32,152 nucleotides of DNA from an uncultured Gammaproteobacteria bacterium (GTDB taxonomy: Bacteria; Pseudomonadota; Gammaproteobacteria; GCA-001735895), in assembly GCA_947260025.1 (NCBI GenBank), contig CAMYON010000039.1, forward strand, positions 1 through 32,152, written 5' to 3'. This document shows, piece after piece, positions 2,158 through 4,980 of the stretch. How positions within the stretch are numbered: position 1 is the first letter of the stretch; the number at the start of each line of letters is the position of its first letter. Both the position numbers and the translations under genes were made by a program. The notes under the pieces were generated by a model. The model ran no database searches, was not told where the DNA came from, and saw only the letters and a program-made list of their open reading frames with translations.

Positions 2158-2877
2158 ATGAACGATGAGTACCTGTTCATTTCGGACTGCCATCTGGATC
2201 CAGAACGGCCAGGGGTAACAGCGACCCTGATTCGGTTTCTGCAGGAACGCGCGGCGACTGCCAGCCATCTTTACATACTGGGTGACCTGTTCGAAGTCTG
2301 GCTCGGTGACGACGATCCGGCCCTTGAGCATCAGCCGATTATCGATGCGCTGCAGCGTCTGGCAGCAACAGTTCCGGTGTATTTCATGGCCGGTAATCGT
2401 GATTTTCTGCTGGGTCGGGATTTTGCCGCCAGGATCGGCATGAGCCTGCTCGAGGAACCCCAGGTTTTACAGCTCGGTAATCGACGGACCCTATTGGTCC
2501 ATGGCGACACGCTGTGCACCGACGACCACGACTATCAGCACTTTCGCAGCATGGTGCGCAGCGCCGCGTGGCAATCCGAGTTTCTGGCCCAACCGCTGGC
2601 AGAGCGTCAGCGGATTGCGGCCGGGCTGCGCAGTGACAGCGCTGACGCCATGGCGCAAAAATCCGCCGATATCATGGACGTCAATCAGCAGGCGGTGCGG
2701 GATTGCTTCGATCAAAACCGGGTCGACACCATCATCCACGGGCACACGCATCGTCCGGCGGTTCACCGTTACGGGTCCGAACTGCAAAGACTGGTGCTGG
2801 GGGATTGGAATCCGGGACCCAGTTACCTGAGCTGGGATCATCAACAGGGCTTCAGGCTGGTGGACCCCAGGGTTTAA
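2158..2877 (+). CDS. lpxH: UDP-2,3-diacylglucosamine diphosphatase (lipid A synthesis)
   Basis: Hydrolyses UDP-2,3-diacylglucosamine to lipid X and UMP on the inner face of the inner membrane, the fourth step of lipid A synthesis. The 239-residue protein has the metallophosphoesterase signature: SDCHLD (Asp10, His12), GDLFEVWLGDDD (Asp43), GNRDFLLG (Asn80), HGDTLCTDD and the C-terminal HGHTHRPAVH. The GDLFE-W-GDDD and HGDTLCTDD segments are those of LpxH rather than of generic phosphoesterases. No clear Shine-Dalgarno sequence precedes the ATG, which fits coupling to the cyclophilin gene 15 bases upstream. Its stop codon overlaps, tail to tail, the stop codon of the DUF455 gene on the other strand (shared TTAA). 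Confidence 0.96.
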   Translation: MNDEYLFISDCHLDPERPGVTATLIRFLQERAATASHLYILGDLFEVWLGDDDPALEHQPIIDALQRLAATVPVYFMAGNRDFLLGRDFAARIGMSLLEEPQVLQLGNRRTLLVHGDTLCTDDHDYQHFRSMVRSAAWQSEFLAQPLAERQRIAAGLRSDSADAMAQKSADIMDVNQQAVRDCFDQNRVDTIIHGHTHRPAVHRYGSELQRLVLGDWNPGPSYLSWDHQQGFRLVDPRV

Positions 2878-3671
2878 CCGCCCCGCTCCAGCGCTTCCAG
2901 CTCGGAACTGGCAAAGCCAGCCTCGATCCGCGCGGGATAGTTAAAGGGCCCGCGCAGCTTACCTTCCATAAATCGCTCGACCAGCTCGCGAAAGGTAGCC
3001 GGTACGTCGAGGTTCTGTTGCTCGCAAATCCAGCAAAACCAGTCGTTACCGATGCGCACATGTCCGATCTCGTCGCGGTATATCGTCTCCAGCATGGCGG
3101 CCGCGGCTTCATCCCCGAATTGCCTGAACTTGGCGATCATGGCGGGGGTAACATCGAGACCCCGCGCCTCCATCACGCGAGGTACCAGTGCCATGCGGTG
3201 CAGCAGGTTGTCACGGGTTTTACAAACCATGTCCCACAGCCCTCGATGCGCCGGGTAAGCGCCGTAATAACTGCCGCGTCGCTTCAGTTCCGCGTCCAGC
3301 ATCTGAAAATGCCGCGCTTCCTCGCTTGCGACCAGCAGCCAGTCGCCGACGAAATCGGCTGGCACATCGCGAAAACGATAAACCGCGTCAAGCGCGATAT
3401 TGATGGCATTGAATTCGATATGCGCGAAGGCATGTAGTAATCGGATTCTCCCTGCTTCGGTGGCAAAGCTGCGCCGCTCCAACCGGCGCGGGTCGACCAG
3501 TTCCGGCTTTGACGGACGACCGGGATCTTCGATTGGCAGTATTTCCGAGTCCGCGCCGCTTATACCTGGCTGCCTTTCCCATGCCTGATGCAGTTGCGTA
3601 GTCATCTCGCATTTGTTGCGGGTATCAGGTTCGAGAATGGCGTCCTCGAGCTGGCGATAAAAATCAACCAC
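2874..3671 (-). CDS. DUF455 ferritin-like (diiron) protein
   Basis: Resembles the DUF455 family of ferritin-like four-helix proteins; no specific reaction can be assigned. Candidate diiron ligands are visible in order: the Glu in HAFAHIEFNAI, the Glu/His pair in ASEEARHFQML, and a third helix with IYRDEIGHVRIG. This is the E...ExxH...E...ExxH pattern of ferritin-like enzymes. The start is GTG, eight bases inside the end of metZ, so translation is probably coupled. The N-terminal segment AILEPDTRNKCE encoded from this GTG resembles the conserved family beginning, which argues against the later ATG at 3603-3605. The tRNA hydroxylase MiaE has a related fold, but the sequence fits DUF455 better. 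The role in a metZ operon is unknown. Confidence 0.85.
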   Translation of the reverse strand: MVDFYRQLEDAILEPDTRNKCEMTTQLHQAWERQPGISGADSEILPIEDPGRPSKPELVDPRRLERRSFATEAGRIRLLHAFAHIEFNAINIALDAVYRFRDVPADFVGDWLLVASEEARHFQMLDAELKRRGSYYGAYPAHRGLWDMVCKTRDNLLHRMALVPRVMEARGLDVTPAMIAKFRQFGDEAAAAMLETIYRDEIGHVRIGNDWFCWICEQQNLDVPATFRELVERFMEGKLRGPFNYPARIEAGFASSELEALERGG

Positions 3672-4842
3672 CGAGACCGCGCGCCAGGTCGTCGATGATA
3701 TCGTCGGGATCTTCGAGTCCCACTGCGACTCGAATCAGCCCCTCGCTGATCCCAACCTGCCGTTTTAGTTCGTCGCTGACACGGCCATGTGTGGTCGTCG
3801 CCGGATGCGTGATCGTGGTCTTTACGTCTCCGAGATTGGCGGTAATCGACAACATTCTGGTGGCATCTATTACGCGCCAGGCGCTTTCGCGCCCACCACC
3901 GACAACAAACGATACAACACCGCCAAATCCGTGCTGCTGTGTCTGCGCCAGCCGATGCTGCGGATGCGATTCGAGCCCGGGATAGTAGACCTGTTCGACC
4001 GCGGGATGATCGGCCAGGAAGCGCGCCACCTGCAGCGCCTGCTGCGAATGCGCTTTCATCCGCAGACCGAGCGTTTCCAGGCCCTTCAGGGCAACCCAGG
4101 CGTTGAACGGGCTCAGGCTCGGGCCGGTGGTCCGGATCACTCCGAACACCTCCTCTGCGACCAGTTGTTCTGGCCCCACCACCGCTCCGCCAACAATGCG
4201 GCCCTGGCCATCGAGATACTTGGTGGCCGAATGCACTACCAGGTCGGCGCCAAAATCGAGGGGGCGTTGCAGTGCCGGCGTACAGAAACAATTATCCACC
4301 ACCAGCAGGCAGTCATTTTCATGAGCCAGGTCAGCCAGCGCCCTGATATCAGCGATTTCGGTAAGCGGATTCGACGGTGTTTCTAGAAACAACAGGCGCG
4401 TATTGCCTTGAATCGCCTGCCTCCAGTCTTCCAGGTCGTTCATGCCGACAAAGCTGGTGTGGATACCGAACCTGTGGAGGTATTTGTCGAACAGGGTCGT
4501 AGTAGTGCCGAACACCGAACGCGAGCTGACGATATGATCTCCTGACTTCAGCAAAGCCACGCACAGGCTCATGATAGCCGCCATGCCCGACGCGGTCGCA
4601 ACACAGGCTTCCCCGCCTTCCATTGCCGCCAGGCGTCGTTCGAAAGCCTGTGTCGTCGGATTGGTAAAACGCGAGTAAATGTTGCCCGGCTCATCGCCGG
4701 CGAATCTCGCGGCGGCCTGGGCCGCATTCTCGAAAACGAAGCTCGAGGTCGCAAATATTGCTTCGCTGTGCTCGAGTTCGGCCGTACGCCGTTGACCGCT
4801 TCTGACGGCCAGCGTATCGAAACCAGGGTTGTCGTTATTCAC
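3664..4842 (-). CDS. metZ: O-succinylhomoserine sulfhydrylase
   Basis: A PLP enzyme that makes homocysteine directly from O-succinylhomoserine and sulfide in methionine synthesis. It belongs to the Cys/Met metabolism family: YSRFTNPT near residue 56, SGMAAI, ETPSNP, VVDNCFCTP, and the PLP lysine (Lys208) in SATKYLDGQGR. The DGQGR segment after the lysine is characteristic of MetZ as opposed to MetB or MetC. I chose the GTG at 4840-4842 because GGAG lies seven bases upstream and the product (392 residues) begins NNDNPGFDTLAVRSG like its relatives. An upstream in-frame extension to 4917 would run through the leader and is unlikely. It lies downstream of purF, as in Pseudomonas, and overlaps the DUF455 gene. 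A candidate SAM-responsive leader precedes it. Confidence 0.94.
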   Translation of the reverse strand: MNNDNPGFDTLAVRSGQRRTAELEHSEAIFATSSFVFENAAQAAARFAGDEPGNIYSRFTNPTTQAFERRLAAMEGGEACVATASGMAAIMSLCVALLKSGDHIVSSRSVFGTTTTLFDKYLHRFGIHTSFVGMNDLEDWRQAIQGNTRLLFLETPSNPLTEIADIRALADLAHENDCLLVVDNCFCTPALQRPLDFGADLVVHSATKYLDGQGRIVGGAVVGPEQLVAEEVFGVIRTTGPSLSPFNAWVALKGLETLGLRMKAHSQQALQVARFLADHPAVEQVYYPGLESHPQHRLAQTQQHGFGGVVSFVVGGGRESAWRVIDATRMLSITANLGDVKTTITHPATTTHGRVSDELKRQVGISEGLIRVAVGLEDPDDIIDDLARGLGG

Positions 4843-4903: not shown

Positions 4904-4980
4904 ACCCTCTTTAGCAAATTTATTTATGGAACCGACTGGCGGAACCCGGGCGCCTGCAAGCCGAGTAACAAATTAGCGCC
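4904..4980 (-). ncRNA. Candidate SAM-II-like riboswitch aptamer in the metZ leader
   Basis: Read on the minus strand, GGCGC (4980-4976) pairs with GCGCC (4953-4949) around a loop that starts UAAUUU and ends CGGCUUGCAG. The tail then carries AAAU, UUGCUAAAGAGGG (to 4905). This resembles the SAM-II aptamer as I recall it: GCGC stem, GAUUU, UUGCA just before the returning GCGC arm, then AAAU and GCUAAA-A-GGG. The region between the returning stem and the tail is about 20 bases longer than in the classic aptamer and can form a small hairpin. The element begins where the transcript from the promoter at 4989-5017 should begin, and the downstream gene is in methionine synthesis. SAM-II is known mainly from alphaproteobacteria, so SAM-V or a related variant is possible. 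Confidence 0.5.

Follow-up and report, generated by a model that had tools for sequence, protein, structure and literature searches.

A SAM-II-class riboswitch with an inserted hairpin very probably precedes metZ in a gammaproteobacterial genus

Introduction

The SAM-II riboswitch has been described as a compact RNA made of one stem and a pseudoknot, with a mention of its occurrence in other proteobacterial lineages (PMC1273637), and SAM-II elements from gamma- and beta-proteobacteria have already been published (PMC2258182, PMC2704228). Tandem copies are known from 44 examples (PMC9481103). In the solved SAM-II RNA, the adenines of the joint L3 contact the minor groove of the stem P1, and simulations describe the formation of this P1-L3 contact as the rate-limiting folding step (PMC12434664). 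Many riboswitches carry variable stem-loop insertions (PMC2258182).

Several named RNAs lie close to this class. The Rfam family SAM-II long loops (RF01726) shares the SAM-II core, and its printed consensus shows no stem at the joint between P1 and L3. SAM-V is a pseudoknot with related ligand-contact bases (PMC2704228). The metXZ element, published as novel from an alignment of 34 leaders, is a pseudoknot in beta-proteobacterial metX and metZ leaders in which regions 1-4 and 2-6 pair; the text of the same study reports SAM_alpha, the Rfam model of SAM-II (RF00521), only from Rhizobiales and Rhodobacterales among its genomes (PMC4239095). Finally, RF02424 (Bp2_287) is filed as a Burkholderia sRNA; its source paper suggests a cis-acting element connected with methionine metabolism, and nowhere in its main text uses the term "SAM-II" (PMC3521395).

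Here we analyse the leader of a metZ gene in a stretch of 32,152 nucleotides from an uncultured gammaproteobacterium (hereafter the window), and compare it with leaders from the same genus, from sister genera and from more distant proteobacteria.

Results

Architecture of the metZ leader

The gene in question encodes an O-succinylhomoserine sulfhydrylase (MetZ; NF006003, 683 bits against a cut-off of 522) and runs on the minus strand from a GTG start at 4842 to 3664. Its leader contains the SAM-II core in the usual order at 4980-4904 (minus strand): P1, AAUUUG, UUGC, an A-rich L3 and GCUAAAGAGGG. The GGCGC/GCGCC stem, UAAUUU, UUGCA and AAAU-containing tail listed by the initial annotation were all found on this strand and in that order, and its placement of the element near a predicted transcript start, ahead of a methionine-synthesis gene, also holds. 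The promoter-like hexamers (5017-4989, minus strand) consist of a -35 TTGACA at 5017-5012 and a -10 TATCGT at 4994-4989, separated by a 17-base spacer; eight bases lie between their end and P1, and from the hexamers we would place the transcript start near 4983-4982.

For comparison, we collected the 31 genomes of the genus, all of which encode some MetZ-like gene. Close orthologues are present in 28, and 27 of these have a readable leader; in the remaining one (G024) the contig begins within the gene. G012, G022 and G023 have distant homologues only. TTGAC lies 36-39 bases 5' of P1 in all 27 leaders.

All elements described here lie on the minus strand. The 5' strand of P1, GGCGC (4980-4976), is partnered by GCGCC (4953-4949), as judged from the sequence and the genus alignment. 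The four inner pairs are constant, and the outer pair varies, being GC in 17, AU in six and unpaired in three of the 26 distinct genus rows. L1, UAAUUUG (4975-4969), forms the ligand-site strand of SAM-II, and its AUUUG is invariant in 27/27 leaders. The P2b 5' strand ACUC (4966-4963) overlaps an invariant CUCGG (4965-4961, 27/27) that is also complementary to 4870-4866; of the P2b pairs three are constant, and A4966-U4904, the fourth, fails to form in 12 of the 26 distinct rows. The P2a 5' strand is UUGC (4959-4956, within UUGCA 4959-4955), with UGC invariant and CUGC in one leader of 27 (L044). The 3' strand of P2 together with pocket bases forms GCUAAAGAGGGU (4915-4904), of which GCUAAAGAGGG (4915-4905) is invariant in all 27. 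Overall, the pocket bases AUUU, UUGC and GCUAAA do not vary across the 27 leaders except for a single U to C change in one. The L3 core AUAAAUUU (4923-4916, including AUAAAU at 4923-4918) has four A columns that are invariant in 27/27, and these we take, from a mapping of residues in structure 2QWY, to be the four adenines that line the P1 minor groove.

Between P1 and L3 lies a predicted 19-base hairpin, GG[UU]CCG - loop - CGG[UU]CC (P3, 4946-4928), recognised from its fold and from covariation in the genus. Thus, the leader shares with SAM-II (RF00521) the P1 stem, P2 pseudoknot, pocket bases, A-rich L3, a promoter a few bases before P1 and a downstream methionine gene, and differs in adding P3, with 22 extra bases, between P1 and L3. 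The usual SAM-II has an L3 of about 11-12 bases directly behind P1, whereas 34 bases separate GCGC from GCUAAA in the window; because this joint is longer than usual, we call the element a SAM-II variant. Among 175 distinct SAM-II-like elements in the loci that we fetched, the joint between P1 and GCUAAA has 11-12 bases in 114, at least 20 in 49, and another length in 12.

Two features lie further downstream. CCCCCCUUCCGAG (4878-4866) shows complementarity to the aptamer segments GAGGG and CUCGG; its CCGAG is invariant in 27/27 genus leaders and occurs in six of seven sister-genus leaders, the seventh having CCGACGAG. In the minimum-energy fold, GAGUUUUUC (4868-4860) pairs with GAGAAACUC (4852-4844) to form a hairpin (4868-4844) that covers the ribosome-binding site GGAG (4853-4850). 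Behind metZ, the window contains a DUF455 gene (2874-3671; PF04305, 319 bits), which also resembles the tRNA hydroxylase MiaE weakly, below cut-off; a DUF455-like reading frame was also seen by eye behind metZ in one sister-genus locus (L021).

Conservation and class assignment

Of the covariance models that the initial annotation had in view, SAM_alpha gives a full-length match to the leader that scores 19.8 bits, short of the 36-bit cut-off (E 0.032, 4227 families searched on 451 bases). In this alignment the returning P1 strand is set beyond the insert, and the score falls under the cut-off because the extra hairpin, a 22-base insert, splits P1 from L3. In a search of the whole genome, the leader ranks second of ten SAM_alpha matches (E 0.061), and at E<=10 the model gives matches in 14/14 control genomes, none above cut-off; this score lies within the noise and is not decisive. 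The best match in the genome (L001, 25.6 bits) was rejected as a chance hit: by eye, it looks like part of a terminator hairpin where an aminotransferase-like gene ends. The SAM-V model (RF01826) gave no match in the metZ leader at E<=10, and SAM-II long loops (RF01726) none in the leader or the whole genome at the same limit, and we discarded both as identities. From the earlier suggestion of a SAM-II or SAM-V relative, SAM-II therefore remains, given the end-to-end match and the conserved core, and SAM-V falls away.

We regard the conservation of the leader as decisive for the reality of the predicted element. Core and insert are kept in 27/27 readable genus leaders, with 41 invariant columns. 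Seven of the eight P2 pairs form in 25 or 26 of the 26 distinct rows, and the outermost in 14. No covariation of P2 was found within the genus (26 distinct rows); across lineages, P2b covaries at the two middle of its four positions (98 distinct strand pairs, with none of 2000 shuffles reaching the observed total).

A covariance model built from the genus leaders matched 28 of the 31 genus genomes at 78.9-97.7 bits, 27 of these being the training set; the sole untrained match, in G012, also has the insert. In the sister genus g3, the same model found elements lacking the insert in 7/8 genomes at 54-60 bits, and in g2 it matched neither of two genomes. These g3 elements have 12 bases between GCGC and GCUAAA, compared with 34 in the window, and precede metZ in six of seven cases, the seventh lying at a contig end. 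SAM_alpha scores them at 34.3-45.6 bits in 7/8 genomes, above cut-off in 6/8. Since the genus-built model and SAM_alpha converge on the g3 elements, we conclude that the window element is homologous to plain SAM-II. Taken together with the anatomy, this makes it very probable that the metZ mRNA carries a riboswitch of the SAM-II class at its 5' end. Comparison shows a predicted H-type pseudoknot core whose pocket bases are conserved and, between the P1 3' strand and L3, an additional stem-loop, P3.

Two other explanations bear on this assignment. A protein-bound leader or a plain attenuator could resemble SAM-II by chance, as the Rfam score within the genome noise would allow; the homology to sister-genus SAM-II elements above the cut-off and the covariation of P1, P2b and P3 speak against this, and we give it almost no credence. 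Alternatively, the same fold could bind S-adenosylhomocysteine or another SAM derivative, and an inserted stem could in principle alter selectivity. The pocket bases are, however, the same as in the sister element that scores above the SAM_alpha cut-off, SAM OFF switches usually act on methionine-synthesis genes such as this one, and P3 would sit at the P1 end that is farther from the pocket, as far as the geometry described in PMC12434664 indicates. A different ligand is thus very unlikely, and SAM-II proper is the reading that we follow.

The initial annotation had called this an expanded architecture in an unusual lineage. The expansion is borne out, the extra bases being a covarying hairpin. 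The lineage is not unusual: among the 95 genomes that we searched, which include that of the window, 12 (six of them from g3) have a SAM_alpha match above cut-off, and the text of two papers already places SAM-II in gamma- and beta-proteobacteria (PMC2258182, PMC2704228). A scan of viral contigs returned no MetZ relatives. Further SAM-II elements were seen in same-genus genomes at L014 1501-1573 (41.8 bits) and L025 1501-1578 (33.8 bits, A+U-rich); the proteins encoded next have 240 and 156 residues, respectively, and no Pfam match.

The inserted hairpin P3

The roughly 20 extra bases first noted after the returning stem and ahead of the pseudoknot tail correspond to a 22-base insert, retained in 27/27 leaders. 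Across the genus the insert measures 21-40 bases and always sits immediately 3' of P1 and 5' of the four invariant adenines. A hairpin is predicted in all 27, and P3 is present in each of the 28 metZ-type leaders seen in the genus. Against mononucleotide shuffles, which are milder than dinucleotide shuffles, the inserts fold with a mean z of -2.68, and 23/27 fall below -1.5. The weak folds are those of the window (-0.49, with two U.U mismatches), L040 (-0.76), L062 (-0.99) and L058 (-1.09).

The covariation expected among relatives' metZ leaders was found alongside the 41 invariant columns: all seven P3 pairs show two-sided changes. Within P3, 78% of cells are paired, and the outermost pair fails in 16 of the 26 distinct rows; the loop sequences vary freely. 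Taken over the entire structure, four measures (paired cells, changed cells, pair types and covariation score) exceed 500/500 shuffles, which ignore the relatedness of the genus leaders; a fifth measure, the number of pairs with two-sided changes, was equalled by 67 of the 500. When the pairing partners were slid by 1-3 columns, pairing dropped from 87.5% to 39-50%.

P3-type hairpins in other lineages

Outside the genus, a pattern scan found a hairpin at the same joint in three of 60 named MetZ loci (L088-L147; 60 of 80), from a betaproteobacterium (L113), Salinisphaera sp. Q1T1-3 (L115) and Salinisphaera hydrothermalis (L127). A loose pattern matched 153/369 genomes of the class and 97/398 of the phylum, false positives included. 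This pattern misses the window's own element with its AAUUUG, and false positives without P1 were removed by eye before families were named. A real P1 followed by a hairpin was present, among the matches listed, in at least seven families (f42, f108, f134, f162, f166, f171 and f189) besides the window's f1. In f108 the hairpin occurs in 2/7 of the matches listed, and within a single genus of f162 (g169) one genome, G317 (L303), has P3 and another, G210 (L309), does not. Against mononucleotide shuffles, the inserts of L304 (z -1.08) and L300 (z -1.44) fold weakly.

The most extensive set comes from f189, where a strict pattern requiring the insert matched 102 of 249 genomes. The MetX model TIGR01392 found one gene in each of six genomes at 456-466 bits; because these scores lie under the curated cut-off of 500, we call the genes metX-like. 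All six of their leaders (five f189, one f108) contain SAM-II with the hairpin insert. Downstream genes of f189 were checked in five genomes, and all five are metX-like. For 35 f189 leaders (30 of the 102 strict-pattern matches and the five metX-like leaders), 94% of five stem pairs form in the best of seven registers, compared with a mean of 71% after mononucleotide shuffling, and none of 2000 shuffles was as high.

SAM_alpha was above cut-off in none of 36 further P3-bearing loci (16 and 20 of f189). The search of the 16 loci covered 45 kb at E<=1, and under this limit even a match of 19.8 bits would go unseen. With short f189 elements and E<=10, SAM_alpha matched 19/20 at 13.2-20.5 bits, all under cut-off, and the matches reach roughly as far as the insert, ending at model position 42-46 of 79 in 18 and at 54 in L334; L115 and L294 scored 14.4 and 11.9 bits, also under cut-off. 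To call SAM_alpha blind to P3-bearing RNAs would thus be too strong, as short stretches give partial sub-cut-off matches.

The genes behind elements with or without P3 include metZ, metX-like, metK-like and metF-like genes and an ABC transporter ATPase with a NIL domain, which we read as metN; for P3-bearing elements they include metZ, metX-like genes and NIL-domain ABC transporter ATPases. In genomes of the class, P3-less SAM-II was seen, by eye from protein starts, ahead of metK-like (L210, L219, L227, L228), metF-like (L180, L188) and ABC transporter-like genes (L036, L181). Some elements elsewhere in the class precede genes without a known methionine link, as in L198. Tandem copies occur in L026, L189, L190, L191 and L198 (L218 being the same place as L198), the second copy often being a distinct subtype, GAUUUAA..ACAACUUGC. 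The tandem in L198 precedes a MoxR-like AAA ATPase, and those in L026, L189 and L191 precede proteins without a Pfam match.

Whether P3 matters to the switch can be judged from these comparisons. P3 might be a passive, neutral insertion: its length ranges from 21 to 40 bases, its loop is free to vary, relatives lack it even inside one genus (G317 with, G210 without), and the general occurrence of variable stem-loop insertions in riboswitches (PMC2258182) would accommodate such an origin. On the other hand, its pairing is kept despite sequence change both in the genus and in f189, and it is present in 28/28 metZ-type leaders seen in the genus. A P3 without effect is therefore possible, though we tentatively prefer a hairpin that contributes to the switch.

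Relation to the metXZ element and RF02424

The f189 metX-like leaders resemble the published metXZ element (PMC4239095) in leader type and in having a pseudoknot, and are SAM-II with P3. Compared by its text description, and with f189 taken as beta-proteobacterial, the metXZ element is probably a P3-bearing SAM-II. RF02424 matches four of the 16 P3-bearing loci at the metZ leader, each on the opposite strand, and is above cut-off in three of them (L294, L295 and L297; 107.5-203.9 bits). A fifth match is weak (L312, 25.5 bits) and lies away from the metZ leader. In the class, RF02424 matched 63/369 genomes, none above cut-off, and it matched one of 14 control genomes. At each of the 30 RF02424 loci inspected (L202-L231), the opposite strand carries a SAM-II-like sequence; the leaders concerned are those of metZ and of other genes. 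The RF02424 family may be strand-swapped. The text passages of open-access papers that we consulted describe neither a hairpin inserted into SAM-II nor an identification of metXZ with that class; the revised SAM-II drawing in PMC2258182 may mark an insertion site.

A model for regulation of metZ

The aptamer tail GAGGG and the loop CUCGG are both complementary to a downstream stretch of the CCCYYCCGAG type. GAGGG, CUCGG and CCGAG are invariant in all 27 leaders, including four in which the ribosome-binding site pairs differently. This site is mostly paired in every genus leader (unpaired share at most 0.43), its partners being GAGUUU:AAACUC in 20/27, GAGUUA:UAACUC in two (L057, L063), GAGUU:AACUC in L056 and CUCCC:GGGAG in four. 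The complementarity and the paired ribosome-binding site together suggest a translational OFF switch, a reading that we favour slightly. When S-adenosylmethionine is abundant, it would fit the P2 groove and lock the tail GAGGG to the loop CUC, and the freed downstream CCCUUCCGAG would help to close the hairpin over the ribosome-binding site, turning metZ off. When the ligand is scarce, tail and loop would pair with CCCUUCCGAG and the site would open. P3 would occupy the open end of P1, the point from which L3 runs along that stem, probably stacking on P1 and probably aiding the formation of the P1-L3 contact without touching the pocket.

Nested folding showed no opening of the ribosome-binding site, with a mean unpaired share of 0.14 free and 0.13 bound and the bound value lower in 15/27 leaders. 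Forcing CUCGG:CCGAG raised the energy by 4-14 kcal/mol in 27/27 genus leaders, and opened the site in four, closed it further in 10 and left it unchanged in 13, by a method that excludes pseudoknots. Because the site stays closed in both states by these calculations, the translational step is one that we infer.

The energies, in giving the translational model no support, leave room for a switch that acts on transcription. Terminators are reported in many SAM-II leaders (PMC1273637, PMC2258182), a hairpin with a U-run was seen by eye in L020, L312 and L314, and in the window a U-run (4865-4861) follows CCGAG. Within the genus, however, no local stem stands directly ahead of the U-run, and a conserved hairpin covers the ribosome-binding site. 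A terminator in the metZ leader is thus less likely, and we consider control of transcription unlikely compared with the translational OFF switch.

Discussion

With modest confidence, we propose that SAM-II elements bearing P3 are widespread but have been overlooked, and that this form was gained or lost on several occasions among gamma- and beta-proteobacteria. It would take in the orphan metXZ element as well as the RNA underlying RF02424, and P3 may tune the switch by seeding, at the mRNA 5' end, the P1-L3 contact that limits the folding rate. The carriers of this form probably include leaders so far known only as unexplained RNA elements. What is new is a structural variant of SAM-II and a lead that ties two orphan names, metXZ and RF02424, to a known class.

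The SAM-II fold tolerates a third helix at one fixed joint, where it is kept by compensating changes in two lineages. Natural pairs with and without P3, such as G317 and G210 in the same genus, make its role in the P1-L3 contact testable. Because the current Rfam model leaves the P3 forms under its cut-off, methionine genes of some gamma- and beta-proteobacteria look unregulated or appear to have an unexplained RNA; a revised model including P3 would name these RNAs.
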